A stretch of 64,000 nucleotides of DNA, taken from Dyella sp. GSA-30 (GTDB lineage Bacteria > Pseudomonadota > Gammaproteobacteria > Xanthomonadales > Rhodanobacteraceae). The stretch covers positions 3,449,524-3,513,523 of the forward strand of contig NZ_AP027042.1 in the NCBI RefSeq assembly GCF_027924605.1, in the 5' to 3' direction. Under the pieces are notes generated by a model that was given only the letters and a program-made list of their open reading frames with translations, had not been told where the DNA came from and made no database searches. Both the position numbers and the translations under genes were made by a program. Positions 24,501 through 51,395 of the stretch are shown here, in pieces (positions within the stretch are counted from its first letter, which is position 1; every line of letters starts with the position of its first letter).

Positions 24501-27500
24501 GGGCCATATCGCGAACGCGCCCGACCAGATCGGCCACGCTCGGCGCACCTGACAGGTCAATGCGCAAGGCCAGCGTATTGACGAAGAAGCCGATCAGCGA
24601 TTCGACTTCTCGCCGATTGCGGTTCGCCGTCGGCGTGCCGATGACTAGATCGTCCTGCCCGCTGAGCCGGGCGAGCACGGCGGCCCATCCAGCCAGCATG
24701 GTCATGTAGAGCGTCGCCCCGTGCTGCTGTCCGAGGCGTTTGAGCGCCTGGGTCAGCGATGCATCCAGCGACATCGGCACCCAGGCGGCGGCATAAGACT
24801 GTTCGGCTGGGCGCGGGCGATCGGTTGGCAAAGCCAGCAGCGTCGGCGCACCATCGAGTGTGCGGCGCCAATAGTCTGCCTGCGCGCGCAAGCGTTCACC
24901 GGAAAGCCACTTTCTTTGCCATGCCGCATAGTCCGGATACTGGATCCCAAGCCCTGGCAGTGGATCGGGGCGGTTTTCCGAAAACGCGTTGTAGAGTGCC
25001 GTAAGCTCGCGCACGATGATGCCGATGGACCAGCCATCGGAAACGACGTGGTGCTGGTTGAGCGCGAACACGTGCTCGTCGTCGGCAAGGCGGATCAGGC
25101 TCGCTCGAATCAGCGGACCGGACGCAAGATCAAACGGGGCATGCACCTCATCGTCGAGCAGCGCGAGCAGGGCCAGCTCGGCGTCGGCGCGCCCCCTGAG
25201 GTCGTGTTCGCGCAGCGGCATGCCTTGGTTCGCGGCGAGCAACTGCACATGCGGTACGCCATCGTGAGCGCCAAAGATCGTGCGCAGCGCCTCATGACGG
25301 GCGAACAGGCGGTCCAGCGCGGCGCGCAAGGCAGGCGCCCGCAGTGTTCCGCGCAGACGCAAGGCGATCGGAATATGGTAGGTCCCGCTGACACCATCCA
25401 TCTGTGCCAGAAACCACAGCCGCTGCTGCGCGAACGACAAGGCGAGCGTGCCTTGTCGTTCGACCGTCGGAATCGCCGGCAACGTATCGCCCCGATCCTG
25501 GCATGCGGCAACGCCTTCCACGAAGTCACGCAGAACCGGTTTTTCAAACAGCAGGGACAGGGGGATGGCGATGCCGTAGGCCTTGGCCAGTCGGCTGGTT
25601 ACGCGCGCGGCCAGCAGCGAGTGTCCGCCCAGTTCGAAGAAATGGTCGTTCCGGCCGGCACGCTCGACACCAAGTAACTCTTGCCACAAGCCTGCGGCCA
25701 TGGCTTCCTTGTCGCCGATGGGTGCTTCGTGTTGCTTGCGCACGAGCGAGCTTTCATCGGGTGCGGGCAGAGCGCGGCGGTCGAGTTTTCCGTTGACGGT
25801 GAGCGGCAGGCTATCGAGAGCGACGAATGCCGACGGCAGCATATAGTCCGGCAACCGTGCCGCCAGATGCGTGCGCAGTGTCGCAGCCAAATCGCCCAGA
25901 TCGCTCGATGCGCCATGCCGTGACGGCACCACATAGGCAACCAGGCGGCGCTCGCCGGGCGTGTCCTCGCGCACGACGATCGCCCCCTCGGTGAGGGCGG
26001 GATGCTCCAGCAGGCGATTCTGGATCTCGTTCAATTCGATGCGAAAGCCACGCAACTTGATCTGATCGTCGTTGCGTCCGACGAATACAAGATTGCCGTC
26101 GGCAAGAAACCGCACAAGGTCGCCCGTGCGATACATGCACGCATCAGGGCCTGGCTCGAAGGGATCGGGCAGGAACCGCTCCAGGGTGAGCTCAGGGCGA
26201 TTGAGATAGCCATGCGCGACGCCGTCGCCGCCGATATACAACTCGCCGACGGTGCCTCTGGGCACCAGTTGCCGATGCGCATCGAGCACATAGACACGCG
26301 CATTGGCGATGGGTCGTCCGATCGGCGTCTCCGCGGTCCAGTCCCGCGGGTTCGCTGGCAGCGCATAGGCGGTCGCGACATGCGTTTCGGTCGGGCCATA
26401 GTGATTGTGCAGGCGTCTTGATGACACCTGACCGATCCAAGCTCGCAACGCGCCGCCGCATTGCAATGCCTCGCCGGCCTGGGCGATGTTTGTCAACGCA
26501 GGCAGGCTCGTAGCCGCTTCAGTAGCGGCTTCGCGAACAGCATCGATGACCAGGTTGGGAGCATAGAGCTCGTCCACTTCCTTGGCCTCCAGCCATTGGA
26601 CCAGACGTGCGGGATCGCGGCGGGTATCTTCATCGGGAACGATCAGCGCCTTTCCGTGCAACAGTGCGGCGAAGATTTCCTGTGCCGAAACATCGAAGCC
26701 CAGTGCCGTGAACTGGGCAACGCGGCCATCGACGCACCCAGGAATCTGACGATGGTGCCAGGACAGCAGATTGACGAGCGCCTGATGCGGCATCTGCACG
26801 CCCTTGGGCACGCCCGTCGATCCCGAGGTATAGAGAACATAGGCGGGTTGGCGTGCATGGGTTCCCCGGGCAGCGTGCGCCGGGTCGGTCGTTGGCCCAT
26901 CGATCCACGCCGATGGCAGCTCGAGATCGATGACGCCATAGGCGTCGAGGCCACCGGCGCCGATCGCCTCGCGCCCCTTGCTGTCGACAATAATCAGGGT
27001 CGGTTGCGCATCGTCCAGGATCCGCAGGAGACGCTCGCTGGGATAGGCCGTATCGAGCGGAATGTAATATCCGCCAGCCTTGAGGATCGCCAACACGCCG
27101 ACGATCGCCTGTCCGCCGCGACGCACGCACAGCGCTACGCCACGATGCGGGGATACACCTTGCGCGATCAGGTGATGAGCGAGTCGATTGGCACGGGCGT
27201 TGAGTTCGGCATAGGTCAGCTGGCCATCGTCAGCGTCGATCGCCAGTGCGCGCGGGCGACGTTGCGCCTGCGCTTCGAACAACTGATGCAGGCATAGGTC
27301 GCGCGGATAGTCCGCAGCGGTGTCGTTGAATGCCTGCAGGAGCAGGCAACGCTCGCTTTCATCCAGAATGTCGATCGTCGCCAGCGGGCGCGCGGTATCG
27401 GCGATCATGGCGCGCAACAGGGTGCACAGATACCCCACATGGCGTTCGATCGTCTCCCGATCGAACAGGGCGGTCGCGTAGCGCAGCGAGCCTTCGATGG

Positions 27501-28802
27501 CCTCTTCATGCTCGGACAGGTCGAGCTCCAGCATGAAGCGGACATTGCCTGCCGGTAATTCAATGGTTTCGATCTGCACGCCTTGCGAATGCATTGCACC
27601 GCGCTGGCTTGCCTGCCAGATGAACATGGCCTGGAACAACGGAGTCTGGTCGAGACGACGTAACGGCCTGGCCAGTTCCACGACCTGTTCGAACGGCAGG
27701 TCCTGATGATCCTGCGCCTCCAGCGTCGTCTTGCGTACGCGAGCCAGCGTCTGTGCAACGCTGGGATCGCCCGATAGATCGATGCGCATCGCCAGCGTGT
27801 TGACGAAAAAGCCGACCAGGCCCTCGATGTCGCGCCGATTGCGATTGGCGACCGGGCTGCCTATGACGATGTCGTTCTGTCCACTGAGCCGCGCAAGTAC
27901 GCTGGCCCACGCCGTCATCAACGTCATGTACAAGGTCGTGCCGTGCTCACGACCCAGGCGCTTGAGCTGCCGGGTGATCGTCGCGTCCAGATAGACAGGC
28001 ACGCTGTCGCCCTCGAAAGTCGCGTGCGGCGGCCGTGGGCGATCGGTGGGCAAGGTCAGCAGGGTCGGCGCATCGGCGAGCGCCTGCCGCCAGAACGTCG
28101 CCTGGCCTGCCATTCGCTCGGTTTGCATGCCCTCTCGCTGCCATGCGGAGTAGTCCGGGTATTGCACTTCCAGCGGCAGTAGCGCAGGTGCCTGTCCTTC
28201 GGCAAACGCTGCATACAGCGCACTCAATTCACGCGTGATGATGCCGATCGACCAACCGTCGGAAACGATGTGATGATGGGTAAGCAAGAGCACATGCTGC
28301 TGCTCGTCCAGGCGCAGCAGCTGCGCGCGGATAAGTGGGCCGACGGCGAGGTCGAACGGCGTACGCGCTTCGCGCTGCGCCATGACCGAGCATTCGGCGT
28401 GCGGATCGCGTGCTCCGGCCAGATCGATGTCCTGCCAGGGCATCCGGGTATCGGCTGGCATGATCTGGCAACGCGGCTCGCCATCGCGGGCAAAAAACAC
28501 AGTACGCAAGCCCTCGTGCCTGGCCAGCAACGCATTGAGCGCCTGCCGTAGCGCTGTCTTGTCGAGAGCGCCGGAAAGACGCACGGCGAGCGGCATGTTG
28601 TAGGTGACATTGACGCCGTCGAGCTGCGACAAAAGCCAAAGTCGCTGTTGCGCGAACGACAGCGGCAAATCGCCTTCGCGAGAAACAATGGCGATCCGGT
28701 CGTTCGATGTCTTGCGCCCGGCGACACCTCGCGCCTTGGCCAATTGGCGAAGCCTTTCGATCGCCAGCGCATCCAGGCCGTCGAACGGGGACGTCTTGTC
28801 GG

Positions 28803-28806
<4 letters not shown>
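9358..28806 (-). CDS. NRPS, six modules (modules 4-9)
   Basis: The giant 6482-aa synthetase has an ATG start at 28806 that overlaps the preceding NRPS stop (ATGA). Its order is C-A-T, C-A-T, E/C-A-T, E/C-A-T, E/C-A-T, C-A-T. The carrier serine motif GGHSLL occurs near residues 1060, 2124, 3201, 4289, 5369 and 6434. The predicted substrates are Pro, Thr, Val, Thr, an Hpg-like residue and one unassigned residue, as given in the module entries. Three condensation domains carry the FHHxLAxxGD motif of dual C/E domains and should epimerize the Thr, Val and Thr loaded just upstream. There is no separate E domain, methyltransferase or thioesterase. The A-T regions of modules 5 and 7 are near-identical, and the module 6 A domain is shared with modules 10 and 11 of the next gene. 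Confidence 0.97.
12560..15839 (-). other. NRPS module 8: dual C/E-A-T, Hpg-like
   Basis: Borders are approximate. The C/E domain has [10 protein letters not shown] and HHLIGDH. The A domain has [25 protein letters not shown] and [10 protein letters not shown], giving D-I-L-H-L-G-C-T-F-K. D-I-x-H-L-G matches the first six positions of Hpg codes, while the last positions resemble the Val-type domains around it. Hpg or phenylglycine is predicted, with low certainty. Confidence 0.5.
15622..17641. repeat. Near-identical Thr A-T block, copy in module 7
   Basis: Roughly 2.0-kb block covering the start of the following C/E domain, the carrier domain and the A domain. It matches 22117-24136 at a constant offset of 6495, with very few differences seen. 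Similarity stops abruptly near 17641, at the junction between the condensation and A domains. Confidence 0.85.
15840..19099 (-). other. NRPS module 7: dual C/E-A-T, Thr
   Basis: Borders are approximate. The C/E domain has [10 protein letters not shown] and HHLIGDH. The A code is D-F-W-N-I-G-M-V-H-K (Thr). The A and T domains are near-identical to those of module 5. Confidence 0.8.
19100..22329 (-). other. NRPS module 6: dual C/E-A-T, Val
   Basis: Borders are approximate. The C/E domain has [10 protein letters not shown] near residue 2228. Its second motif reads HHLVDDV, unlike HHLIGDH in the other three dual domains. The A code D-A-L-W-I-G-G-T-F-K is one change from Val D-A-F-W-I-G-G-T-F-K. 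Confidence 0.7.
19332..20844. repeat. Near-identical A-domain block, copy in module 6
   Basis: Third copy of the 1.5-kb Val-type A-domain block, located in a different NRPS gene from the other two. Confidence 0.85.
22117..24136. repeat. Near-identical Thr A-T block, copy in module 5
   Basis: Partner of the block at 15622-17641. The upstream condensation domains differ in type (plain C here, dual C/E in module 7), so the duplication boundary falls inside the C-A linker. Confidence 0.85.
22330..25539 (-). other. NRPS module 5: C-A-T, Thr
   Basis: Borders are approximate. The C domain has HHVVSDGW near residue 1253 (LCL type). The A code is D-F-W-N-I-G-M-V-H-K, the classic Thr code exactly. 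The dual C/E domain of module 6 should convert this residue to the D configuration. Confidence 0.8.
25540..28806 (-). other. NRPS module 4: C-A-T, Pro
   Basis: Borders are approximate. The C domain has HHIVSDGW near residue 180. The A domain has [23 protein letters not shown] and [10 protein letters not shown], giving D-V-Q-Y-A-A-H-V-A-K. This matches the D-V-Q-x-x-A-H-V pattern typical of Pro-activating domains. Pro is predicted with good confidence. Confidence 0.7.
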
Positions 28807-37775
<8,969 letters not shown>

Positions 37776-37780
37776 GATGA

Positions 37781-37787
37781 CCTTCCT
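37781..37787 (-). promoter_or_regulatory. Ribosome binding site deciding the first NRPS start
   Basis: AGGAAGG on the minus strand, five bases before GTG 37775. It is the best Shine-Dalgarno match near the 5' end of this gene and favours that GTG over the upstream TTG at 37823. Confidence 0.7.
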
Positions 37788-37859
37788 TGTTGCGGATCTG
37801 AACTTCGGCGTTGCGTCGGCCAATGGCGATGTTGCCCATGGCTTCGTAGAGCGGCGATC

Positions 37860-39254
37860 TCAACGGGCGAGCGCGACTTCCTCTGCCTGATGGCTTTCAA
37901 TCGCGTCGCCATGGCGTTGCGGCAAGGCGTCGTATGGCATCGGATAGGCGCGGCAAAGTTCGCGCACGCTGCCGTTGACCTGATGACGCAGGCTTTCGTC
38001 CAGCTCGAAACCGCCCTGATCGCTGCGCGTGTGCCTGAGCACCGTATCGATCAGTTCGATCGCCAGGTGCATCTGTTCCTTGCCCATGCCGCGAAGGGAC
38101 GCGGTATTGCTTCCCAGGCGCAGGCCACTGGCCGTGGCCGCGCCACGGAAGTCGCCGGGAATCTTGTTTTTGTTCACCAGGATGCCGCAGTGTTCCAGTG
38201 CACGCGTGGCAACCTCGCCGTTAAGGCCAGCCGGCAAGCGAAACAATACGATGTGGTTATCCGTGCCGCCGCCGATCACTTCATAGCCCCGCAGCTGCAG
38301 TTCGTGCGCCAGCGTGGCGGCGTTCGATTTGATGCGATGGGCCAGTTCGCGGAAGGACGGCTCCAGCAGGCGTCCCATGGCGCGCGCCTTTGCCGCAATG
38401 GTGTGCACCTCGGGAGAGCCCTGCATCAACGGGAACACCGCGCTCTGAATGATCTGCGACAGCGTCTTGCTGCCATCGGGCCCTTTCGATTCGGCATCCC
38501 GGCCGATCAGGATCAGTGCACCGCGCGGACCGAAAAGCTGCTTGAAGGTGCAGGTGGTGGTGAAATGGGCTGCATTGATCGGGCTAGGGTGCACGCCTGC
38601 GGCAACCAGACCTGCGATATGCGTGATATCGGCAAGGACATAGGCGCCGACCTCGTCTGCGACGGCACGGATGCGATCGAAATCGATGACACGCGAATAG
38701 GACGTCGTACCGCAGATGATCAATTTCGGCCGATGCGCCAGAGCCTGTTCGCGCAGCTGGCCATAGTCGATCAATCCTTTCGAATCCAGGCCGTAGCCCA
38801 CTGCTTTATACAGCTTGCCGCTGAGATTGGCGGGCGATCCGTGCGTCAGATGGCCACCTTGATCGAGCGACATGCCCAGGATGGTATCCCCGGGCGATAG
38901 CAGGGACTGCATGACCGTGTGGTTCGCAAAGCTCGCGCAATGGGGCTGCACGTTCACGTATTGCGCACCGAAGACTTTCTTCGCACGGTCGATCGCCAGT
39001 TGCTCGGCCATGTCGACGAAGCGGCAGCCGGCGTGATATCGCTTTCCTGGATAACCTTCGGCGGTGACGTTGACGATGGTCGCTCCAACGGTAGCCAGCA
39101 CCGATGCATCGGTTCCACCACTGGAGGCAATCAGCGACAAGGACTCCGACTGCCGCTCGTGTTCTCTCTCAAGAATATCGAACAACTCCGGGTCTTCGTG
39201 ACGAAGCGTCTGGATGCCCTTGGCCAAATAACGCTCGATGTGACTCTGCTTCAT
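37860..39254 (-). CDS. SHMT-like PLP enzyme with altered active site
   Basis: This 464-aa protein has the fold-type I signature of serine hydroxymethyltransferase: EGYPGKRY, DITHIAGLV, a PLP lysine in TTTCTFKQL (K238) and the usual C-terminal LGSNTASLRG region. I start it at ATG 39254 because GAGGGA lies just upstream; an ATG four codons earlier has no such site. Three conserved SHMT positions differ. The folate-reaction glutamate of the IASEN motif is Ser45 (IASSGG). The RYYGG motif reads RYHAG (His74). The His before the PLP lysine is Phe237. The enzyme is therefore unlikely to be the housekeeping GlyA. SHMT-fold transaldolases and aldolases that make beta-hydroxy or alpha-methyl amino acids are the closest functional models. 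Its place 84 bases before the first NRPS gene suggests it makes a building block. The substrate is not determined. Confidence 0.88.
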   Translation of the reverse strand: MKQSHIERYLAKGIQTLRHEDPELFDILEREHERQSESLSLIASSGGTDASVLATVGATIVNVTAEGYPGKRYHAGCRFVDMAEQLAIDRAKKVFGAQYVNVQPHCASFANHTVMQSLLSPGDTILGMSLDQGGHLTHGSPANLSGKLYKAVGYGLDSKGLIDYGQLREQALAHRPKLIICGTTSYSRVIDFDRIRAVADEVGAYVLADITHIAGLVAAGVHPSPINAAHFTTTCTFKQLFGPRGALILIGRDAESKGPDGSKTLSQIIQSAVFPLMQGSPEVHTIAAKARAMGRLLEPSFRELAHRIKSNAATLAHELQLRGYEVIGGGTDNHIVLFRLPAGLNGEVATRALEHCGILVNKNKIPGDFRGAATASGLRLGSNTASLRGMGKEQMHLAIELIDTVLRHTRSDQGGFELDESLRHQVNGSVRELCRAYPMPYDALPQRHGDAIESHQAEEVALAR

Positions 39255-39352
39255 GTAATCCCTCATGTAGTCAGGTACGTTTTGATTTATCCGGTATGCT
39301 CATGCCGGATATGCGCGATGTCTGTGCGGCTCTTGTGAGGCGAAAAGGCGAG

Positions 39353-40642
39353 CTATTCGGTCGCCGCTTCCGGTATTCGCTTCCCCGTTCCGTGCTCGGG
39401 CGCGGCATGTTTTTCCACTCGGCGCACAATGAACCGAGACAGCGCGGCAACGCCTGCGCGAATGCGATCGGGGCTTTCCGCACTGAATGCAAGACGAATG
39501 CGCCGGTTCTGTGTCTGGTCGAAGGCAAAAAAAGCCATCGGCAGCACAATGACGCCATCGCGTGTGGCGCAATCGGCGACCGCCTCCGCGTCGAAGCTTA
39601 TCGGTACATCCAGGCTCAGGAAAAAACCGCCCTGCGGCTTGTTCCAGTGCACGGGAAAGCCTGCCGGTGAAAAGCTCTGATCCAGTTGTGCGAGCATCGT
39701 GTCTCGGCTGTGTCGATACGCGTCCAAGGTGGGGCCAAGCCATGAACGGAGACTGCAATCGCGCTCGATAAGCAGGCCGCCAACGATCGCCTGGCATAGT
39801 TGGCTGGTGTTGACCGTAACGAAACTCTTGCGCTCCGCAATGCCATTGAACAGCGATACTCGTGCAGCACGATCGCCGAACAGGGTCTCCGGAAGCGTGG
39901 CGGCGCCCACGCGTAGCGCCGGCGCAATGGTCTTCGAATAGGTCGACAGGTAGATTACGCAACCGGCCGTATCGAGTGAGGCCATGGCGGGTACCATGCT
40001 GCCTTCGTAACGGAACATGCCGTAGGGATTGTCTTCAAGCACAACAATGCGGTGACGTTCACACGCGGCCAGTATGGCCAGGCGCTCTTGGACAGGGATG
40101 ACCTCGCCGGTTGGATTGTCAAAGTCCGGAATGAGATAGACGACTCTTGCGCGTCGCCCGTCTGCCGCCAGTTCCTCGACCGCCTTTTCAATCTGTGCGT
40201 CGATGCCCTCGACCGAGCCATCGAGCGGATACAGCGCGACCGACGTGGCTGCCGCCGCACCCGTGATGCCGATGTAAGTCGGGTTACGCACCAGCACGAC
40301 ATCATTCGCTTGCGGGCACAGCTCCGGGAGACACAGTGCCAGTGCCTCCTGGCATCCCGCCGTAACGATCGTGCGATGGGCACCGGCATTTACGCCGTCG
40401 TCGTTGGCGATCTGCCTGGAAACAAGCTCATGCACCAAGCCCGCTGTGCGGCCGTACTGCAGCACGCTCGACAACGGAGCAGTGCCGAGAAACCTCGAAA
40501 GCCAGCGATTCAAGGACTCCGTGCTCGTCCCATCGAACAAGCGGTCTCCTGGCCGTCCTGCAGCCAGCGAGACGGCCGTCGGATACGACTCGGCAACTTC
40601 GTTCAAAAAGTTCATGACAGAGGCGTTATTTGGCGCTGCCAT
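39353..40642 (-). CDS. hpgT: HpgT-like class I PLP aminotransferase
   Basis: This 429-aa protein has the features of the aspartate-aminotransferase fold: LAAGRPG near the N terminus, PDFDNPTG (N176), STYSKT with the PLP lysine K237, ALRVG (R244), and a C-terminal RRIRLAFS that supplies a carboxylate-binding arginine. The N-terminal pattern MNFLNEV, then YP, then LAAGRP, and the LQYGRT motif resemble the hydroxyphenylglycine aminotransferase HpgT of glycopeptide clusters. It would transaminate 4-hydroxybenzoylformate (or benzoylformate) to Hpg (or phenylglycine). I chose ATG 40642 because AGGGGGG lies five bases upstream; the longer frame from TTG 40666 lacks a site. It sits between the dioxygenase and the SHMT-like gene. 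A general 2-aminoadipate-type aminotransferase is the main alternative. Confidence 0.87.
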   Translation of the reverse strand: MAAPNNASVMNFLNEVAESYPTAVSLAAGRPGDRLFDGTSTESLNRWLSRFLGTAPLSSVLQYGRTAGLVHELVSRQIANDDGVNAGAHRTIVTAGCQEALALCLPELCPQANDVVLVRNPTYIGITGAAAATSVALYPLDGSVEGIDAQIEKAVEELAADGRRARVVYLIPDFDNPTGEVIPVQERLAILAACERHRIVVLEDNPYGMFRYEGSMVPAMASLDTAGCVIYLSTYSKTIAPALRVGAATLPETLFGDRAARVSLFNGIAERKSFVTVNTSQLCQAIVGGLLIERDCSLRSWLGPTLDAYRHSRDTMLAQLDQSFSPAGFPVHWNKPQGGFFLSLDVPISFDAEAVADCATRDGVIVLPMAFFAFDQTQNRRIRLAFSAESPDRIRAGVAALSRFIVRRVEKHAAPEHGTGKRIPEAATE

Positions 40643-40647
40643 TATTT

Positions 40648-40654
40648 CCCCCCT
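40648..40654 (-). promoter_or_regulatory. Ribosome binding site of the HpgT-like gene
   Basis: AGGGGGG on the minus strand, five bases before ATG 40642. It supports that start over the upstream in-frame TTG at 40666. Confidence 0.65.
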
Positions 40655-40724
40655 GGATACTCCCAAGCTCCTACAGCCCTTCCTTCGTTGCCCCCCGGCA
40701 AGTTCGGAAACTGGCTCCCGACTT

Positions 40725-41279
40725 TCAGTACTTGTTGCCTTGCTCCAATTGATCGAACAGCGCTTGAACGTTGCTGTCCAGAAACCCTTCTTCGCCTTCG
40801 CGACGTATGAGTTCGAAGCTCATGCCCGTGTTCTGGCATCGCGTCGTGAAGGATTGAGTCAGCCCGGCGCCTCGAATGATATTGGTGTCGAAATTCATCC
40901 CGCGATCGCGCAGTGTCTCGACCGTCTGCTCGACGTCGTCCACCTCGAAGGCGATATGCGCCACTCCAACACCGAAATTTTCAATCAATTGAGATACCTG
41001 AGATTGAGGCTCGGTGCCTTGGCAGAGCACGAACCGCATTCCATTGGCCTCCATTTCCGCGGAGATCATTCCGGTCCGGGCGCCGCGGATCTGCCTGCGG
41101 CCTTTCAATTCGAAACCGAGAACGTTCTCAAAGAAATGCACTGCTTCATCAAGGTTGCCCACTGCTAAGGCTATGTGATCGATGCGTCTATAAGGGGCTT
41201 TGGCACTGGCCCCGGACGGCAACTCGCTTTGCTCTGTATCAACTGGAGACTCGCCGGATATAACAACGTCACGATCCAT
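40725..41279 (-). CDS. Half-size HPPD/HmaS-like VOC dioxygenase
   Basis: This 184-aa protein of the vicinal oxygen chelate fold starts with ATG 41279, with AAGAGGT upstream. It contains RIDHIALAV (His35), GVAHIAFEV (His108) and GMSFELI (Glu156), followed by a C-terminal GFLDSNVQALFDQLE. The order and the last segment match the C-terminal catalytic domain of 4-hydroxyphenylpyruvate dioxygenase (HPPD) and hydroxymandelate synthase (HmaS), which carries the 2-His-1-Glu iron site. The usual enzymes are about 350 aa with two VOC domains; here the N-terminal one is absent. Flanked by an alpha-hydroxy-acid oxidase and an HpgT-like gene, it probably turns (4-hydroxy)phenylpyruvate into (4-hydroxy)mandelate. 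Alternatives are a methylmalonyl-CoA epimerase-like or other small VOC enzyme. Function is inferred from context and metal ligands only. Confidence 0.8.
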   Translation of the reverse strand: MDRDVVISGESPVDTEQSELPSGASAKAPYRRIDHIALAVGNLDEAVHFFENVLGFELKGRRQIRGARTGMISAEMEANGMRFVLCQGTEPQSQVSQLIENFGVGVAHIAFEVDDVEQTVETLRDRGMNFDTNIIRGAGLTQSFTTRCQNTGMSFELIRREGEEGFLDSNVQALFDQLEQGNKY

Positions 41280-41831: not shown

Positions 41832-42995
41832 CTATGACGGCAGCGATTCAACCATCGAGGGCAGGGGCGCCGGTGCGATGTGGAGATGTTCGCGGCTGAG
41901 CTCGGCCAGCGAACGACAGCCAACCTGTGCGAGTGTGTCGTCAAGTTGCTCGCGCAGCAGCCCAATGACCTCGTCGACGCCACGCTCGCCACGAGCGGCA
42001 AGCCCATAAAGCGCCGCGCGCCCCACCAGTACCAGGTCTGCGCCTAGTGCAATAGCCTTGGCGATATCGCTTCCGCGCCGAAAGCCGCTGTCGATCAGCA
42101 CTGCCGCGCGCGTGGCGGCGCGCACATCGGCCAATACTTCGATGGGGGCAAGACATTCATCGAGCTGGCGGCCACCGTGGTTGGAAAGCACAACGCCATC
42201 GGTGCCGTATCGCATGCATCGCACCGCATCGGCGGCCGAAAGGATGCCCTTTACCAGCAGCTGATGCGGCCACACATCGCGTAACCAGGCTAGCCCGTCC
42301 CAGTCGAAGGTCGCGTCCATGTTCCGGCTGAGCAGTGCCGCCTGCACATCCAGGTCGTCCGCTGCCACTTCGGTGAAATTGGCCAGCCGGGGCAGGCCGC
42401 GTCGCATGGCCGAGATGGTCCAGCGGGGGTGGGTAAGCCCATCCCATAGCGCACCGGGTGTCATGCTCAGCGGCAGCCTGAAACGATTGCGCAAATCTCT
42501 TTCACGGATGCCGTTCTTGACTACGTCGACCGTAAGAATAAGGGTCGTATAGCCGGCGGCCAGTGCGCGTCGCACCAGTTGTTCGGCCAGTCGACGATGC
42601 ACCACATAAAGCTGAAACCACAGCTCACCATCGACCTGCCGGGCCACGTCCTCGATACTCGACGAAGCCGCGGTTGATAACACGAACGGCAGCCCGTTCC
42701 GGGCTGCAGCTCTGGCTAATGCAAGATCCCCTTCGGGCCAAAAAAGACCATTAAGACCCATGGGGGCAATCGCCAGCGGCATGGGCAGCCGTTTGTGAAA
42801 TATGGGGTGGGATAGATCGCGTGCACTGACATCCAGTAGTCGCTTCGGCCTGAAGCGAATACGCGCCAGGGCAGCACGGTTATGTGCCATGCCGCTCTCG
42901 CTTCCCGCACCACCCTCGAGATAGTCAAATACCCTACGTGGGAGTCGTCGCCTTGCCGCCAAGCGATAATCGTCCACATTGATCAGCAAGCTCAT
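41832..42995 (-). CDS. FMN-dependent alpha-hydroxy-acid oxidase, HmO-like
   Basis: This 387-aa protein of the glycolate oxidase/lactate dehydrogenase/mandelate oxidase family forms a TIM barrel that binds FMN. Visible motifs are FDYLEGGAGSE (substrate-side Tyr25), IAPMGLNGLFWP, QLYV (Tyr130), LTVDV (Asp157), LSNHGGRQLD with the catalytic His273 and Arg276, and the phosphate-binding IDSGFRRG and LVLVGRAALYG. The ATG at 42995 is preceded by AGGGA. The length is normal and all catalytic residues are present. Next to the HmaS-like and HpgT-like genes, its likely role is the 4-hydroxymandelate (or mandelate) oxidase step that gives the aryl-glyoxylate for transamination. An L-lactate dehydrogenase role cannot be excluded from sequence alone. 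It is 552 bases upstream of the dioxygenase gene, so it may have its own promoter. Confidence 0.88.
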   Translation of the reverse strand: MSLLINVDDYRLAARRRLPRRVFDYLEGGAGSESGMAHNRAALARIRFRPKRLLDVSARDLSHPIFHKRLPMPLAIAPMGLNGLFWPEGDLALARAAARNGLPFVLSTAASSSIEDVARQVDGELWFQLYVVHRRLAEQLVRRALAAGYTTLILTVDVVKNGIRERDLRNRFRLPLSMTPGALWDGLTHPRWTISAMRRGLPRLANFTEVAADDLDVQAALLSRNMDATFDWDGLAWLRDVWPHQLLVKGILSAADAVRCMRYGTDGVVLSNHGGRQLDECLAPIEVLADVRAATRAAVLIDSGFRRGSDIAKAIALGADLVLVGRAALYGLAARGERGVDEVIGLLREQLDDTLAQVGCRSLAELSREHLHIAPAPLPSMVESLPS

Positions 42996-43271: not shown

Positions 43272-44495
43272 TCACGTGAATGGTGCAGAGATCACCAACG
43301 ATGCACCGACACACCAGGCCACCATGATCAATACAGGCCATCGTGCCCAGGCGATGCCCGCAAAAGCGATCGCGGCAACCGCGATGTCTTGGCGGCTGCG
43401 CATCGCACCCACCCATACGGGGTTATAGAACGCAGAGGCCAGTAGCCCTACGACGATCGCGTTGACGCCGGCGAGCATGCTCGCGACCCATGCCTTCGAG
43501 GCCAGCGAACGCCAATAGGGCAGTACGCCTGAGATCAGGAGCAAGCCTGGCAAAAAAATCATCAGAACGCTTACCGTCGCGCCCAGCCATCCTCCCGCGC
43601 CACTATAGATCTGCTTGCCCAGGAAAGCCGACAACGTGAACATCGGGCCTGGCATGGCTTGCGCTGCTCCGTAGCCAGAAAGAAAAGCGTCCGGCATAAC
43701 CCAGCCAGGATCGACCACGGCCTGTTTGAGCAAAGGAAGAACTACATGCCCGCCGCCAAAGACGAGCGCTCCGGTCCGATAGAAAGCACTCGCGACCTGG
43801 CCCAAGCGGGGTAGGTCAGGCGCCGCCGTGATCGCGATAGTCAGTAGAGCGCCATACAAAACCAGAAGCCAGGCTCCTGCCTTCGGGCCATAGCGAAGCG
43901 AGAATGTTTCTCCTTGCCTTCCATTGAGATCACGGCAGGCCCACAGACCCAGTGCGGCGCCACAGGCAACGATCAGCAGTTGAGTCCACGCACTGGTATT
44001 GAGGATGCTCGCGGCAGTCGCGGCGACGGCAAGAAGTGCGCGTGGCCAATCGGGACAAAGTTTGCGTGCCATGGCCATTACGCCTTGCGCAACGATGGCC
44101 ACGGCGACCAACTTGAGCCCGTGAACAACGCTCTGTCCCCATGGGCTGGCCAAGTGGTTGCTCCACAGGGCAAAGGCGAACATGAGCAGTGCGGACGGCA
44201 AGGTGAAGGCCAGGAAGGCTGCAATCGCGCCAGGCCAACCCGCACGCAGCAACCCAATCGAAAACCCAAGTTGGCTGCTGGCAGGCCCAGGCAGGAACTG
44301 GCACAAGGCAAGCAATTGCCCGAAGTGTTCTTCGTCCAGCCAGCGACGCCGATCCACAAACTCACGACGGAAATAGCCCACATGAGCCACGGGCCCACCA
44401 AACGATGTCAGCCCAAGCCGAAGAAAAATCCGACCGACCTCCAGAGGATGGCGTGCTTCGTCAGGAGGCGGCGGCGTAGTAGTGGGCAAGTCCAT
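43272..44495 (-). CDS. chrA: Chromate transporter, ChrA family
   Basis: This integral membrane protein of the CHR superfamily has about 407 aa from ATG 44495. The frame stays open upstream to a TTG at 44585, but that extension is hydrophilic and the ChrA homology begins at FLRLGLTSFGGPVAH. Two homologous halves are visible, each with a glycine-rich signature: SFGGPVAHVGYFRREFV with QFLPGPASSQLGF in the first, and VFGGGHVVLPLL with QAMPGPMFTLSAFLG in the second. About ten to twelve hydrophobic segments are present. ChrA proteins export chromate by proton exchange, and many homologues have unproven substrates. No chromate regulator (ChrB-type) is adjacent. It lies 276 bases before the oxidase gene, on the same strand, between the NRPS locus and the mobile island, and is probably unrelated to peptide synthesis. 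Confidence 0.9.
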   Translation of the reverse strand: MDLPTTTPPPPDEARHPLEVGRIFLRLGLTSFGGPVAHVGYFRREFVDRRRWLDEEHFGQLLALCQFLPGPASSQLGFSIGLLRAGWPGAIAAFLAFTLPSALLMFAFALWSNHLASPWGQSVVHGLKLVAVAIVAQGVMAMARKLCPDWPRALLAVAATAASILNTSAWTQLLIVACGAALGLWACRDLNGRQGETFSLRYGPKAGAWLLVLYGALLTIAITAAPDLPRLGQVASAFYRTGALVFGGGHVVLPLLKQAVVDPGWVMPDAFLSGYGAAQAMPGPMFTLSAFLGKQIYSGAGGWLGATVSVLMIFLPGLLLISGVLPYWRSLASKAWVASMLAGVNAIVVGLLASAFYNPVWVGAMRSRQDIAVAAIAFAGIAWARWPVLIMVAWCVGASLVISAPFT

Positions 44496-44796
44496 GGGTA
44501 TGCGAAGAGGCCATACAGCAAGAGTGCCGGGATCGTATGGGGTCTCTCGACCGGACGTCTTTGCGCGGATTGAAAAAAAATTCAATTAAATCATATATGT
44601 TGGGTTGCTTATTGACCTTTAAAAACCGGACTCGCGGCTAGAGGGCGAATTTTTGCGGGGAATATTTCCGGAATCGTCAAGAATTCCGGCCTATTGGTTC
44701 ATTGGCTAATAACAAGAGGGGATGTACCTTACTCATAGCGCAGCAGTACCCTTTTTGGAGGGGCTCCGCTCAAAAAACTAAGCAAGGTGATTCGGG
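44496..44796. other. Intergenic region, likely left end of the transposon
   Basis: About 300 bases without a gene. Base composition drops sharply to AT-rich here and stays lower through the tni genes. A TGT-starting stretch occurs near 44598, as expected for ends of Tn7/Tn5053-type elements, but I found no matching inverted repeat to its right. A short palindrome TTCCGGAA occurs near 44666. Confidence 0.35.
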
Positions 44797-46656
44797 ATGC
44801 CAAGACCGATTACCTCCACTCTGCCGGTCTTAAGTTGTCGACCGGGTGCTAGGGTGCTCTTTCGAAACCGACCATGCGTGATCGAGCGCATTGAGTCGTT
44901 CGAGCGCGTTGTGATTACAGACGAGCTAAGTGATGAGGTGATCCCAGTGTCACCTACGTCGCTAAAGCTTCGACTTGGGGACGGTGCATCCGAGCGGACT
45001 CCTCTTAAGGTCGAAGAGAAGGAGATCCTGATTGCTTCTCACAGGGCGTCAGCTCTGATGCCGTTTGCGCTCTCGGGCGAACCAATTCATCTAGAAGAAA
45101 TGCGCAAACTAGAGCTTGCCCTTGGACTTCATCGGACGCAGATTTATCGATGCATTTCCCTGCTGCGACAGTCGCCATGCCCCATGGCATTAGTAAGAGG
45201 GGCGCGAGGCGCAAAGCGTGGCAGGTTGAAGCTTGATGCAGAAGTTGAGCGAATCGTAGCGCGTGAAATTAGAGTCGCATCCAGATCTGGAAATGTGCTT
45301 CAGCTGGAAACCATTAGAGATAGGATTGATGTCGCTTGTGATGATATAGGCAAGAAATGCCCATGCCTAAAAACTATTAGAGCTCGTATCGCTGATAAGC
45401 GCTACGAGATTCTCTTGCGAAAAAAGCTTGGCAGGAGGCGAGCCATTGAGCGAACAAAGGCATTTCCAGGAAAAATATCGACAAACGGAGCCTTGGCGAT
45501 GGTTGAAATCGATCATTCTCCTTTGGATATCATTCTTGTTAGTTCAGAAACAAGAAAGCCGATTGGTCGTGCACATTTGACGATAGTGATTGATACTCAT
45601 ACACGTGTCATTCTTGGCTTTCATTTGGGTCTTGATGATCCGCAGGTGCTCTCTGTTGCACTTGCGTTGGTACATGCAATCCTGCCAAAAGATGCGTGGT
45701 TGGCAGAGCATGGTTTATCTGAACTCGAGTGGCCCATGTATGGTCTGATGCGTGCCGTAAGATTGGATGGTGGTGCGGAGTTTAAATCGTTAGCATTTAA
45801 GAATGCCTGTAAGAAATGGGGCGTCGAAATTAGCTATCGAAATAAGAAGGAAGATGGCGCAATCGTCGAGCGGGTAATAGGAACGATTCAAACACGAGCC
45901 TCGCAGGAGCCTGGCGCAACGGGTAGCGACCCAAAGAAAAGGCGGCGAGAAAGAGCGCCTTCTGAAGATGCACAAATGACACTCTTTGAGGCAAATAGAT
46001 GGCTCGGAAGAGAGGTTGCTCAGCGATATCACTATCGCAGGCACGAGGGTATTGGCATGTCACCTCATCAGAGCTGGGTTGCCGAGCATACTTGCACTAG
46101 TGGTATAACACTGCCTGCCATAGTTACGGATGCAAAAAGCTTACTCCTTTCGTTCCTTCCTGAGATTAAGCGTGTTATCGGGCATGACGGTATTCATGCT
46201 TTTAACGAACGCTATTTTAATCATGAGATTGCGCGATTTATCAAGCCTGGCGTAAAAAGAACAATTAAATATGACGCTAGGGCGATGGGCCTAATCTATG
46301 TTGACTGTGATACAGGATCGTACATTGAGGTTCCATATGCAGATCTGAGTAAGCCAAATTTGCCAAAGTTCGAGCTAGACCACTTGAAGCGGGAGAAGAG
46401 GCGCCAGTTTCCGAGCGAGTTTGATGGGCAGTCAAACCGTCGCTTCCTAAGGTCGCAAGATGCAGAGAGGAGGTCGGCTCACACGGCGACAAAGGAGGCG
46501 CGCCGTCAGGAGCGCCTTTTGCAAGGGCGGAAGGTAGCTTCCGGCGGGGCGTCAGATGACCGCCATCTGGAGGCTTTGGCCAATTCGCAAGAGGATGTAG
46601 TACAGGCTATTGATTACTCGCGCCCTGCCAAAGTTAGCTCAGATGGTGACATATGA
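44797..46656 (+). CDS. tniA: TniA/TnsB-type DDE transposase
   Basis: This 619-aa transposase belongs to the Mu/TniA/TnsB group of the retroviral integrase superfamily. The catalytic core has EIDHSPLD (Asp239), RLDGGAEF (Asp324) and GAIVERVIG (Glu359), a D-D-35-E spacing. The N-terminal half contains helix-turn-helix-like segments (LGLHRTQIYRCISLL), and a Mu-C-like beta region with a basic, arginine-rich tail follows the core. It cuts and joins the transposon ends and normally needs the AAA+ partner TniB and the target-selection protein TniQ, whose genes follow directly. The stop codon overlaps the tniB start (ATGA). Codon use is clearly more AT-rich than in the genes on either side, a sign of recent transfer. 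Confidence 0.93.
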   Translation: MPRPITSTLPVLSCRPGARVLFRNRPCVIERIESFERVVITDELSDEVIPVSPTSLKLRLGDGASERTPLKVEEKEILIASHRASALMPFALSGEPIHLEEMRKLELALGLHRTQIYRCISLLRQSPCPMALVRGARGAKRGRLKLDAEVERIVAREIRVASRSGNVLQLETIRDRIDVACDDIGKKCPCLKTIRARIADKRYEILLRKKLGRRRAIERTKAFPGKISTNGALAMVEIDHSPLDIILVSSETRKPIGRAHLTIVIDTHTRVILGFHLGLDDPQVLSVALALVHAILPKDAWLAEHGLSELEWPMYGLMRAVRLDGGAEFKSLAFKNACKKWGVEISYRNKKEDGAIVERVIGTIQTRASQEPGATGSDPKKRRRERAPSEDAQMTLFEANRWLGREVAQRYHYRRHEGIGMSPHQSWVAEHTCTSGITLPAIVTDAKSLLLSFLPEIKRVIGHDGIHAFNERYFNHEIARFIKPGVKRTIKYDARAMGLIYVDCDTGSYIEVPYADLSKPNLPKFELDHLKREKRRQFPSEFDGQSNRRFLRSQDAERRSAHTATKEARRQERLLQGRKVASGGASDDRHLEALANSQEDVVQAIDYSRPAKVSSDGDI

Positions 46657-47540
46657 ATGCACTGAGCCACCTTGATCCTAGAATACACAAAATGATGGAA
46701 AGATCTAGCGAAGAGCGGGTGGGGTATATCATGGCCGAAAAATTCGTGCCCTATCCTTTAGCTGTATATCTTATAGACGAAGTGAAGAGCATCCTTTCTC
46801 AGGACGCGGCTGATAGATACAAGTGCATGTTGATCTATGCTGCGCCGGGCGGCGGCAAGACAATGATACTTAATGAATGTCGCCGGGTTTTTGCGAATAA
46901 GCGAATTCGGTTTAATGCGGATCTTTCGAGCGGAAAGGATCCTTTCGTTCTTGTTTCATTGCCACCTATTTCCGATTTGAGGGTCATGTATTTCCGAATA
47001 CTTGATATTTTACATATTCCATATGCCCAAAATGACAAGATTGGTCCATTGCATGAGCAGGTCTGTAGAGCTCTGCATAATGCAGGAACAAGGATTCTTG
47101 GAATAGACGAGATTCACAATATCTTGCTTGCCAAGAAGGACCTTGAGGCGTGCATGGCGGCAATTAGAGATCTAGCGAATCTTCCACTAAGCTTGTTGTG
47201 CGCAGGCACGCTTGCGGCGCGACATTGCATTGCGGCTGACGAGCAGTTGAGAGTGCGTTTTCGTTGTCATGAGCTTCTTGCATGGCAAATAAGTGAGAAT
47301 ACGCGAAATTTTCTTGCAACCTTGGAGGCCCGTCTGCCGTTAGAGAAGCCTTCGCATTTGTCTGGCTCAGAAATGATGCCGCTAATTATTAGATTATCCC
47401 AGGGACACATAGGAACCATGGTTGTCGCTGTGCGTGAGGCCGCTCGCGATGCGGTTAGGAGTGGCGAGGAGGTAATATCCGAAAAAGGCATTAAGTTATC
47501 GGTAGAGCGTGTTCTTTCGCAGCGCCTCAAGGTTGCCTAG
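46653..47540 (+). CDS. tniB: TniB AAA+ ATPase, transposition regulator
   Basis: This 295-aa AAA+ ATPase has a Walker A motif APGGGKT near residue 65 and a Walker B motif LGIDEIH near residue 150. It continues with an arginine-rich sensor region (AADEQLRVRFRCHEL) and a C-terminal helical segment. The length matches TniB of Tn5053/Tn402-type elements (about 300 aa). It presumably forms filaments on target DNA and recruits TniA. Its start overlaps the tniA stop by four bases, and the tniQ frame begins before or at its stop, so the three genes form one coupled operon. Confidence 0.92.
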   Translation: MNALSHLDPRIHKMMERSSEERVGYIMAEKFVPYPLAVYLIDEVKSILSQDAADRYKCMLIYAAPGGGKTMILNECRRVFANKRIRFNADLSSGKDPFVLVSLPPISDLRVMYFRILDILHIPYAQNDKIGPLHEQVCRALHNAGTRILGIDEIHNILLAKKDLEACMAAIRDLANLPLSLLCAGTLAARHCIAADEQLRVRFRCHELLAWQISENTRNFLATLEARLPLEKPSHLSGSEMMPLIIRLSQGHIGTMVVAVREAARDAVRSGEEVISEKGIKLSVERVLSQRLKVA

Positions 47541-48645
47541 TTTGCGTAAATTTTCCGCTAGCAATGACTTTCGCGCACCCAGAGGTGGGGAGACGCTTTC
47601 ATCATACCTTGCGGCTTGGCGTGGCTATTTCCACGTACGTCGTCAAGCACTTGATGAGGCGATAGCAAGGGTCGATCCAACGGTTGTCATTGCGCTATCG
47701 CGTGACCCTGACTATCCCAATCATCCGGGATGGTCGCAAACATTGGCCGGGGTTACCAATCTGAGTGCGAGCGTGCTCGAAGAGCTCGCGCAGTTGTGGG
47801 GTCCTTGGCCATTGCTTCCTGAGGCTCGAACAAATGCGTGTTTGGGTTGTCTAGAGTTGGCTGGCTACGTCACAAATCAAGTTGCGCAGAAATTCTGGAC
47901 ATACAGCACTATGACCCAGTGCTTATGCTGCGGCTTGCCTTTCGTAGAGGTGCCTGCAGTGGGGTGGGGGTGGGCAGATATCCCCAGGGAAGTTCGGCGT
48001 CAACGCTATATGCTTATGGAACATCCGGGAGTGGCGCGTGTCGGGTTAGAGCAGGAGTGGGCAAAAGTTGGGGAAGGGCTTAAGACGGCCTCATACTTTG
48101 CTGAACTGAGCTGTTGGGCGACATGTGCTCCCAATCGGAAGTACATGGACTATCTGGGGTGTCAGCCGCATGAGACTGCGCTCGTTTGGGAGAACATGCT
48201 AACTCTACTATGCGCATCCTGGCAGCCTTTTGCCGCTCCTTCGGTCGCAATGCACGGAATTCCTTGCTCTCTTTGGAGTGAGCATTCAACGGCTAAGTTT
48301 GGGGGAGCAAACATGGGGATTTTGCAGGGTAAGCCGACAATGGAGCTGTTTCGTTCTATCGCGAATCCTGCAGAGCGGCGTAGTTGCATACTTATTGCCT
48401 TGGATGCAATTCGCCATGATTACCTGCAGAAGATATATCCTCGCCCGGAGTATCCGCGCTTTGGATCCCAGCTTGGCTGGCTTCCTGTTGTGGCATCAAT
48501 GCCAGAGCTTGCTTGGGATTGGCTGATCGAGCGTGCGCAGTACTGGCCACCTCCCTGGGCTGTCACCATAAGTGGCTGGGAGCAGGTTCGGTGTAAAACA
48601 AAGTCAGCCCGAGAGCGCGGCGCTCGCAAGCGTTGGTTGCGATAG
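47509..48645 (+). CDS. tniQ: TniQ family transposition target-selection protein
   Basis: This protein of about 370 aa has GETLSSYLAAW near the N terminus, as in the ESLxSWL segment of TniQ proteins. A zinc-binding arrangement follows, NACLGCLE and TQCLCCGLPF (two Cys-x2-Cys pairs). The start is uncertain: GTG 47509, inside tniB, or TTG 47542, two bases after the tniB stop. There is no nearby ATG. The C terminus is basic (SARERGARKRWLR). TniQ/TnsD-type proteins select the target site for the TniA-TniB machinery. No Cas genes or crRNA array accompany it, so this is not a CRISPR-associated transposon as far as the window shows. Confidence 0.88.
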   Translation: MFFRSASRLPSLRKFSASNDFRAPRGGETLSSYLAAWRGYFHVRRQALDEAIARVDPTVVIALSRDPDYPNHPGWSQTLAGVTNLSASVLEELAQLWGPWPLLPEARTNACLGCLELAGYVTNQVAQKFWTYSTMTQCLCCGLPFVEVPAVGWGWADIPREVRRQRYMLMEHPGVARVGLEQEWAKVGEGLKTASYFAELSCWATCAPNRKYMDYLGCQPHETALVWENMLTLLCASWQPFAAPSVAMHGIPCSLWSEHSTAKFGGANMGILQGKPTMELFRSIANPAERRSCILIALDAIRHDYLQKIYPRPEYPRFGSQLGWLPVVASMPELAWDWLIERAQYWPPPWAVTISGWEQVRCKTKSARERGARKRWLR

Positions 48646-50269: not shown

Positions 50270-50387
50270 GCATTGCACCTAGCCATTGCGCCCTGATTTT
50301 CTAAGGCGGAGTGCGCCGCATACCAACTTGCTATGCCTGCCAGGAGGGCGTAGCGTCGGCGTGTCGCCGCAAGCGCATCGATATCCC

Positions 50388-51395
50388 ATGCCTACTGAAA
50401 CTCACCACGGGAGGCCGGGCTCGGCCACTCCTGTGGCTGAGTATGTGCGGATGTCCACCGACAAGCAGGACACCTCGGTGGCGAACCAACAAACCGCCAT
50501 TGCCGCCTACGCCAGTGCCCACCACATGGTCGTGGCGCAAAGCTATGTGGATGAAGGACTTAGCGGACTGGACCTGGAAGGCCGCCCCGCGCTTCAGCGT
50601 CTCTTGGATCACGCGCAAATGCATTGCACAGGATGCACTGCCATCCTCGTCCTGGACGTCAGTCGCTGGGGGCGCTTTCAGAACGTGGATGAGTCCGCCT
50701 TCTACGAGTTCCTCTGCACCCAACACGGTCTACGCGTCATCTATGTCGCCGAGCCATTTACAGGAGGCGAAGGGCCACTGCACGCGGTCCTCAAAAGCCT
50801 GAAGCGGTCGATGGCCGCAGAATACAGTCGTGAGCTGTCGGCCAAGGTCTTTGCCGGCCAAGCCCGATTGGTTTGCGCGGGCTTCACCATGGGTGGTCCC
50901 GCCGCCTATGGGTTGAGTCGGATGCTGGTCGACGCTTCGGGTAAGCCTCGATGTATCTTGAAGCCAGGTGAACGTAAAAGCATCGCCACGGACCGCGTTC
51001 GCCTGGTGCTCGGGTCGCGTGATGAGGTGGCCGTCGTACGCTGGATGTTTAAGCAGTCTGCCGCCGGCGTCAGCATGAATGACATCGCAAAGCAGCTCAA
51101 CCAGAAAGGGAAGCGCCCCGCGAGAGGGGGAGCGTCTTGGAGCGCATCCACGATTCGAGGCATGCTTGATGACGAGCGCTACCTGAGAGGGGAGCGGCCC
51201 CTGGACTATTTGATTCTTCCGGCCGTCAGCGCGAAAACCTGGCCGGATGTGATTCAGAACAGTCCCGATGCGGGTGCTCGCTTCTATCTGTTCGATTCGC
51301 TTCGCGTCCTTCGCGAATTGGCTGCCCTCTCCATGGGAGTGCCGGATCATGCATGCGACAGATTAAGAGACGCTGGATACGCGAACAGCAGATGA
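50388..51395 (+). CDS. Serine recombinase (resolvase plus recombinase domains)
   Basis: This protein has about 335 aa from ATG 50388. The frame is open upstream to a TTG at 50286, but the resolvase homology starts at VAEYVRMSTDKQ. The nucleophile is the Ser in YVRMSTDKQ. The conserved LVLDVSRWGRF and YVDEGLSG segments follow, then a long helix (LKRSMAAEYSRELSAKVF), and then a Recombinase domain with AAGVSMNDIAKQLNQKGK and WSASTIRGMLDDERYLRG. The C terminus is short, and no zinc ribbon or long coiled coil is visible. It is therefore smaller than phage integrases of the large serine class and larger than Tn3/Tn5053 resolvases. It may resolve cointegrates of the tni element or mobilise the XRE-SseB segment as a separate unit. 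Confidence 0.88.
   Translation: MPTETHHGRPGSATPVAEYVRMSTDKQDTSVANQQTAIAAYASAHHMVVAQSYVDEGLSGLDLEGRPALQRLLDHAQMHCTGCTAILVLDVSRWGRFQNVDESAFYEFLCTQHGLRVIYVAEPFTGGEGPLHAVLKSLKRSMAAEYSRELSAKVFAGQARLVCAGFTMGGPAAYGLSRMLVDASGKPRCILKPGERKSIATDRVRLVLGSRDEVAVVRWMFKQSAAGVSMNDIAKQLNQKGKRPARGGASWSASTIRGMLDDERYLRGERPLDYLILPAVSAKTWPDVIQNSPDAGARFYLFDSLRVLRELAALSMGVPDHACDRLRDAGYANSR

Follow-up and report, generated by a model that had tools for sequence, protein, structure and literature searches.

A candidate single-domain, half-size (hydroxy)mandelate synthase encoded beside NRPS genes in Dyella sp. GSA-30

HPPD and hydroxymandelate synthase (HmaS, or Hms) are the textbook pair of two-domain proteins that direct a shared oxygenating intermediate to different products. 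We know of no clear need for their N-terminal half in catalysis. The glycopeptide-antibiotic gene set for hydroxyphenylglycine (Hpg), HmaS-HmO-HpgT, brings three enzymes of distinct function together next to an NRPS, and its first enzyme is about 350-370 aa long, with two tandem VOC domains. The window analysed here, a 64,000-nucleotide stretch of Dyella sp. GSA-30 contig NZ_AP027042.1, contains candidates for the same three roles beside NRPS genes, but the first enzyme is of half size (184 aa, one domain) and the second is of MdlB type or, at some related loci, of NAD type (Ldh_2). With HmaS/Hms (A. orientalis 2r5v, S. coelicolor 3zgj and AcmP1 7yvv) the half-size protein shares the fold of the C-terminal domain, the 2-His-1-Glu site, an aliphatic residue at what we take to be the Ile335/Ile355 position of the closing helix, and oxidase and aminotransferase genes as neighbours. 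It differs in its length, in its MdlB-type partner oxidase, in belonging to a separate clade in the best tree and in a distribution mostly within the Proteobacteria. HPPD has the same catalytic-domain fold, metal site, conserved glutamines and closing C-terminal helix, but is twice as long, has Phe where the half-size family has Val, Ile or Thr, and lacks the NRPS context. Methylmalonyl-CoA epimerase has the same single-domain VOC size and topology and the same His-His-Glu triad, whereas the half-size family lacks its fourth ligand and Glu62 and has an extra C-terminal helix and HPPD-type glutamines.

We propose that the protein is a stand-alone Fe(II) dioxygenase of one domain which very probably catalyses the HmaS reaction, its substrate being an arylpyruvate and most likely 4-hydroxyphenylpyruvate. 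The predicted fold, the conservation of ligands and pocket, the gene neighbourhood and an association with an A-domain code are seen directly, and from these we infer catalysis, substrate and stereochemistry. The protein would work like HmaS, with genomic support for that function, yet it stands outside the classical two-domain HmaS (EC 1.13.11.46), since the two-domain feature was tested and its 184 aa include no N-terminal domain.

The gene and its cluster in the window

The VOC gene lies on the minus strand at 40725-41279, with an ATG start and 184 codons in the window translation, and the ribosome-site-like AGAGG is found just before the ATG. The sequence-only reading had described a 184-aa VOC protein with His35, His108 and Glu156 as iron ligands, the C-terminal tail of HPPD/HmaS and no N-terminal VOC domain, and all of this was borne out. 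Residues 35, 108 and 156 were read on the minus strand as His, His and Glu (residue 171, considered below, is Val) and align with the ligands of HmaS by both sequence and structure, and the C-terminal GFLDSNVQALFDQLE aligns with the closing helix of HPPD/HmaS. The open frame around the gene totals only 187 aa and no minus-strand ORF of at least 100 aa occurs between it and the gene at 41832-42995, so that no N-terminal VOC domain is concealed upstream. A promoter scan gave no minus-strand promoter-like site and nothing useful above shuffles. A broken or truncated HmaS was considered and ruled out: the frame has no upstream extension, the single-domain form is recurrent (at least 43 loci of the family are known) and in two members it is joined to a chorismate mutase domain.

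Pfam recognises one Glyoxalase/VOC domain in the protein. Its best NCBIfam model is that for HPPD (TIGR01263, E 8.5e-25, 88 bits) and its second that for methylmalonyl-CoA epimerase (TIGR03081, 58.4 bits); it falls below the curated cut-offs of both (277 and 114.95 bits, respectively). Sequence matches in the PDB are led by HPPDs (5.5e-16), with HmaS 2r5v at 5.5e-12 and an epimerase at 2.3e-9, and the PHROGs matches are to unnamed families only.

The cluster genes described here are all on the minus strand. The gene at 41832-42995 encodes an FMN-dependent 2-hydroxyacid dehydrogenase (FMN_dh by Pfam, with a PDB match) of MdlB type, which is proposed to convert mandelate to phenylglyoxylate. On the other side, at 39353-40666 and with its start probably at an ATG near 40642, is a fold-type I PLP class I/II aminotransferase, proposed to convert phenylglyoxylate to phenylglycine; it is termed HpgT-like by class and position only, as no HpgT model was among its library matches. 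The VOC gene had been placed between HmO-like and HpgT-like genes. The position holds, but the term HmO-like needs correcting: the flavoprotein scores 504 bits with (S)-mandelate dehydrogenase (6bfg) and only 212 bits with the actinobacterial 4-hydroxymandelate oxidase (5zzp); HmO is retained below as a label only. Its counterpart in Xanthomonas sp. Leaf131 (L026) is about equidistant from several hydroxyacid oxidases (mandelate dehydrogenase 275 and 4-hydroxymandelate oxidase 239 bits), and that in Hahella (L035) scores 354 bits with L-lactate oxidase, 264 with 4-hydroxymandelate oxidase and at most 175 with mandelate dehydrogenase.

A serine hydroxymethyltransferase-like gene (37860-39266), with no obvious role in Hpg supply, lies between the HpgT-like gene and the NRPS genes, and L011 has an 84% identical copy. 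The NRPS genes have three A domains (28803-37823), six, including the Hpg-type module (9358-28806), and two (2729-9361), and one more A domain (code near 720) is in a gene that the edge of the window truncates. In gene order the 12 codes are DICHLGAIDK, DAMFLGCTYK and DILQWGLIWK (the first gene), DVQYAAHVAK, DFWNIGMVHK, DALWIGGTFK, DFWNIGMVHK, DILHLGCTFK and DSALIAEVWK (the second), DALWIGGTFK twice (the third) and DAWTVAAVCK, the tenth letter K being set by convention and not read from the sequence. The eighth, DILHLGCTFK (A-domain core at 13330-13875), is a published code for hydroxyphenylglycine; PMC12283262 gives the Hpg codes as DAMHLGCTFK and DILHLGCTFK. Two extractions of the A domains both read DILHLGCTFK in the window and give the same Asp or Gly at 235 for the loci discussed, with single-letter differences at L015 and L031. 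The window therefore has both an oxidase and an aminotransferase beside the VOC gene and NRPS and an Hpg-type A domain, as expected of an Hpg gene set.

Beside the NRPS cluster, at 44797-48645, are genes for a Mu-transposase C-terminal (TniA/TnsB-like) protein and a TniB protein, together with a 378-aa ORF without a Pfam match in a TniQ-like position. Given these adjoining transposition genes, the cluster may have been mobile in the past. A gene for a chromate transporter family protein (43272-44585) also adjoins the cluster, and a resolvase/recombinase gene (50286-51395) is found farther from it.

The family and its neighbours in other genomes

A VOC match at E 1e-15 was found in 8 of 233 genomes of the taxonomic family to which the window belongs, its own genome included. 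Only one of 369 genomes drawn from the class matched at this threshold, again the window's own, and the VOC family is therefore rare. In Trinickia's family 5 of 398 genomes, Trinickia included, matched the profile at E 1e-25. The matching genomes of the window's own taxonomic family include Rhodanobacter sp. DHG33, Dyella choica and Frateuria flava. A scan of named genomes gave at least 79 loci with a clear break, among the matches listed, between 26 family loci (L018-L043; E 6e-25 or better, with the match reaching residue 180-184) and 53 weaker, epimerase-like loci, which served as controls. From plasmid records came loci in Rhizobium, Sinorhizobium, Bradyrhizobium, Paraburkholderia and Vibrio; plasmid matches H3, H4 and H9 fall outside the set. 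The resulting set, which is not a census, is of at least 43 loci, window included, without duplicates (L018, L029 and L030 are the same as L012, L014 and L015). Residues were counted in 35 of the 43 (L022, L042, L102, G966a, G966b, G642, G971 and G925 omitted), in 51 usable rows of the 53 controls and in 24 C-terminal domains of the HPPD family (five longer proteins, L159-L163, omitted). The family rows are related, so neither residue nor neighbourhood counts are independent.

Neighbours were sought by tblastn with the window's HpgT, HmO and NRPS and a Vibrio Ldh_2 as queries, at the same thresholds for the controls. An HpgT-like gene was found at 26 of the 43 family loci listed, in 22 cases within 1.01 kb of the VOC gene, midpoint to midpoint, and at none of the 53 controls listed. 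Among the same listed loci HmO was present at 13/43 (controls 0/53), Ldh_2 at 5/43 (0/53), one or other of these at 18/43 (0/53), NRPS at 26/43 (1/53) and NRPS or HpgT at 35/43 (1/53). In the DNA read, some of it in short stretches, 17 of the 43 listed loci had no HpgT-like gene and 25 neither HmO nor Ldh_2; at the thresholds used 8 had neither NRPS nor HpgT, two of them (L036 and L039) on short contigs. A weak aminotransferase match (E 3e-28) appeared in one control, L071, at a looser threshold only. The controls, for the most part members of other phyla and MAGs, are often NRPS-poor and are not taxon-matched, so that part of the contrast may be taxonomic. Whether single-domain relatives co-occur with hmo and hpgT had been posed as a check by the sequence-only reading: they do, and instead of being epimerases or glyoxalases with no such link they form a separate clade that carries it.

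Ldh_2, of the malate/lactate-dehydrogenase family, takes the place of the oxidase at five loci: L032 of Lysobacter sp. Root916, L098 of Vibrio europaeus, L016 and L017, from two genomes that share a genus, and L034 of a Holophagae MAG. At L016 a homoserine-dehydrogenase-like gene (10133-11305) lies between NRPS and VOC. In genome G580 (L011) IS21-type-like and other transposase-like ORFs (3324-8637) separate HmO from VOC, and the interval, judged by eye, is about 8.5 kb, compared with about 0.55 kb in the window.

A few members are of a different kind. At L042 (Bradyrhizobium sp. Ec3.3, 9974-10475) the VOC match is split across two reading frames. A Sinorhizobium garamanticum plasmid (L102) has two copies (6453-7157 and 10010-10513), near groEL, hemN and fix genes and with no NRPS match, in which the matches extend no farther than residue 170 of the query, inside the C-terminal helix. 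The branch represented by L041 (7851-10453) and L043 (7683-10456) immediately follows a gene for a TPR-sulfotransferase and has no neighbouring NRPS match; its role must differ.

Chorismate and prephenate enzymes lead to arylpyruvates, ie 4-hydroxyphenylpyruvate or, where PabAB joins, 4-aminophenylpyruvate. The VOC domain is fused behind a chorismate mutase domain at two loci, L097 of Sinorhizobium meliloti T073 and L037 of an actinobacterial MAG, and at L097 PabB precedes the fusion gene and prephenate dehydrogenase follows it. Matches to PabB, chorismate mutase and prephenate dehydrogenase occur within 7.1 kb of VOC at L013 and L019, and PabA, PabB and chorismate mutase are near it at L103. 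These fusions and neighbours point to an arylpyruvate substrate. The L097 plasmid cluster (5607-12271), with PabB, chorismate mutase-VOC, prephenate dehydrogenase, a class IV aminotransferase and an aldo/keto reductase beside NRPS, looks like a 4-aminophenyl building-block pathway.

The same reaction could act on another aryl group, with phenylpyruvate or 4-aminophenylpyruvate as substrate and phenylglycine or aminophenylglycine in the peptide. This would suit a partner flavoenzyme nearest to mandelate dehydrogenase, and 4-aminophenylpyruvate fits L013, L019, L097 and L103 because of their Pab and chorismate mutase genes. We nevertheless regard it as rather unlikely, as queries for PabB, prephenate dehydrogenase and chorismate mutase all gave no match in the 22 kb of the window from 30001 to 52000, and the code of the window's module is one given for Hpg in PMC12283262.

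4-Hydroxyphenylpyruvate, the most likely substrate, would lead to Hpg, and one relative is linked to a known Hpg product. PMC12283262 cites Yoshimura 2020 for Hpg and PMC9581180 names that work as the one on haereoplantin, an Hpg lipopeptide of B. plantarii. A Burkholderiaceae genome whose module string matches the haereoplantin cluster has a half-size VOC gene directly upstream, although the haereoplantin peptide differs from that coded in the window. A second locus in G966 has HmO, VOC, HpgT and PabA, and Trinickia (G622) and G642 have VOC-HpgT-PabA-PabB ahead of an NRPS with the code DAMHLGCTFK, HmO in G622 being 24 kb farther on.

The association between code and VOC gene was examined by searching the 233 genomes of the window's taxonomic family with the window's Hpg-type A core at E 1e-25. 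There were matches in 112, and the best match was read in 30 of them, one A domain per genome, the other 82 being outside the test. DILHLGCTFK was the code of 6 of the 30 A domains, and all six genomes have the VOC gene; neither the code nor the VOC gene was present in any of the other 24. Such a coincidence is 1 in 593,775 arrangements of the 30 genomes, with kinship ignored and one A domain each. The remaining VOC-bearing genomes are G002, which has Pab, chorismate mutase and prephenate dehydrogenase-like genes and a weaker A-domain match, and G504, whose A domain carries Gly at 235 and which was not among the matches listed; these two may make other products. On a Paraburkholderia sabiae plasmid (L101:11725) the VOC gene is directly ahead of an NRPS with the code SILHLGCTFK, ie Asp235 replaced by Ser, and that stretch has no HpgT.

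Gly at 235 within an otherwise Hpg-like pocket was found in NRPSs near the VOC gene at L015, L031, L033 and L038, the codes being GVLHLGLVVK, GALHLGLIVK and, in L015, GIVHFGFILK. A domains that load hydroxy or keto acids typically lack Asp235. No HmO homologue was found at E 1e-30 in Frateuria (G504/G624) or in Pseudoalteromonas G626 and G628, and no HpgT homologue at E 1e-20 in G504, G626 and G628; Pelomonas G625 has only distant homologues of both. These A domains, together with the absence of HmO and HpgT from three of the four genomes, suggest that mandelate itself may be the building block at such loci.

Active site and predicted structure

His35, His108 and Glu156 are invariant in all 35 aligned members, and the same positions are conserved in the epimerase-like controls (51/51, 51/51 and 50/51). 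The metal triad alone cannot separate the protein from epimerases; the other pocket residues can. Gln142 is present in 35/35 members and in 24/24 C-terminal domains of the HPPD family, and Gln94 in 33/35 and 22/24, respectively, and neither was found among the 51 controls. They align with positions 334 and 251 of HPPD 1sqi, and PMC3739788 names the human residues Gln251 and Gln334 as equivalents of glutamines with a critical part in the substrate complex. Glu at position 62 is present in 48 of the 51 controls and in none of the 35 members. Position 84, which we take to be the epimerase's fourth metal ligand, is Glu or Gln in 50/51 controls and Val in 35/35 members.

Of the 35 members, 27 have Val at position 171 of the closing helix, 6 have Ile, 2 have Thr and none has Phe. 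The equivalent of this position is Phe in 20 of the 24 HPPD-family domains and Ile in HmaS 2r5v and 7yvv. An HPPD in which this Phe was replaced by Ile lost about 98% of its activity and made some hydroxymandelate as well as homogentisate (Gunsior 2004, as reported in PMC3739788). Ile355 of S. coelicolor Hms, at the same position, is listed among the pocket residues in PMC3720870; the pocket and tunnel residues listed there (208-366) all fall inside 174-367, the range covered by the half-size model.

An AlphaFold2 model of the protein has a mean pLDDT of 86. Superposition on HmaS and HPPD catalytic domains had been suggested as a check. With the predicted model HmaS was the best match (3zgj, Z 20.4; 2r5v, Z 20.1; 156 residues, 2.2-2.3 A), P. 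fluorescens HPPD 1cjx was tied with it (Z 19.5, ie within 1), and methylmalonyl-CoA epimerase (Z 16.0) and HmaS 7yvv (Z 15.7) were lower. Foldseek ranked a glyoxalase-like protein sixth and methylmalonyl-CoA epimerases seventh and lower (E 1e-11 to 1e-9).

It is very improbable that the protein is a homogentisate-forming mini-HPPD, even though the HPPD fold is nearly equal (Z 19.5 against 20.4) and TIGR01263 is the top NCBIfam model: no member has Phe at position 171, the Dyella genome already has an HPPD carrying Phe, and the genes that recur beside the family are those for mandelate oxidation and for aminotransferases.

Origin, proposed pathway and meaning

In a first tree the half-size family, the HPPD catalytic domains, the HPPD N-terminal domains and the epimerase-like proteins formed separate groups. 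Support for the family was 91/82, and its junction with the HPPD catalytic domains was weak (88/54), both with a long-branch warning. When three partial HmaS domains were added HmaS grouped with HPPD (100/97) and the family branched outside both, again with a long-branch warning; on this basis an independent origin is tentatively favoured over shortening of HmaS. A grouping of the family with HmaS, when forced, was not rejected (p-AU 0.279), and a simple HmaS minus its N-terminal domain has no support from the tree. The earlier description of the protein as half-size and HmaS-like agrees with residues, predicted structure and neighbourhood; in the sense of an HmaS less one domain it may not fit.

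All 19 VOC-bearing genomes examined, including the Dyella genome, have an HPPD with Phe. In 15 of them, Dyella again included, the only two-domain homologues at E 1e-20 were this HPPD and longer proteins labelled QuiC-like by frame length. The other four have a further two-domain HPPD-like protein with Leu (G966, G642 and G971) or Val (G627) at the switch, and in these a full-size alternative enzyme is possible. An inactive or auxiliary subunit, with mandelate coming from a full-size enzyme elsewhere in the genome, would be compatible with those four; against the 15 genomes with nothing but Phe-HPPD and QuiC-like proteins, and metal ligands invariant in 35/35 members, we give it very little credence. 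A VOC-fold epimerase, glyoxalase or self-resistance protein in the cluster by chance, for which the single-domain size, the shared triad, the Foldseek ranks from sixth downwards and the Pfam Glyoxalase assignment could be cited, is the least credible reading and was ruled out by residues (no fourth ligand or Glu62, and the Gln94 and Gln142 of HPPD present), by predicted structure (Z 16 against 20), by the tree (a separate clade) and by the neighbourhood (recurrent HpgT linkage).

As a single-domain arylpyruvate dioxygenase, the protein would follow the chemistry of HPPD and HmaS. The 2-oxo acid would chelate Fe(II) bound by His35, His108 and Glu156, and attack by O2 with decarboxylation would give Fe(IV)=O and bound arylacetate. 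The oxo group would then take the benzylic hydrogen and rebound to form (hydroxy)mandelate and not homogentisate; we propose benzylic attack because position 171 is Val and not the Phe of HPPD. The adjoining MdlB-type flavoenzyme would oxidise the product to an arylglyoxylate, the HpgT-like aminotransferase would convert this to (hydroxy)phenylglycine, and the NRPS module with DILHLGCTFK would load it. An (S) product is suggested by the (S)-mandelate-dehydrogenase type of the partner enzyme alone.

A broader reading, which we hold only tentatively and with rather less than even confidence, is that the family consists of independent, originally single-domain arylpyruvate alpha-hydroxylases, which would provide a general 'one-carbon shortening' entry to NRPSs by three routes: a flavin or NAD oxidase with an aminotransferase, giving hydroxy- or aminophenylglycines; a chorismate mutase fusion, channelling from chorismate; and, in Frateuria, Pelomonas and Pseudoalteromonas, direct loading of mandelate as an alpha-hydroxy acid to give depsipeptides.

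The literature consulted, part of it in excerpt, contained no single-domain hydroxymandelate synthase; Yoshimura 2020, the megapolipeptin work and Thongkongkaew 2018 were outside its scope and may name the gene. The dozens of similar genes suggest an overlooked second enzyme family for the mandelate step of Hpg. If the proposal is true, a natural one-domain enzyme would demonstrate that half of the protein is enough, and mandelates and phenylglycines could be made from a small scaffold. The family is also a marker for genome mining: the full-length HPPD/HmaS model misses the protein (88 against 277 bits), and Hpg- or mandelate-containing peptides of Proteobacteria may for that reason be overlooked.
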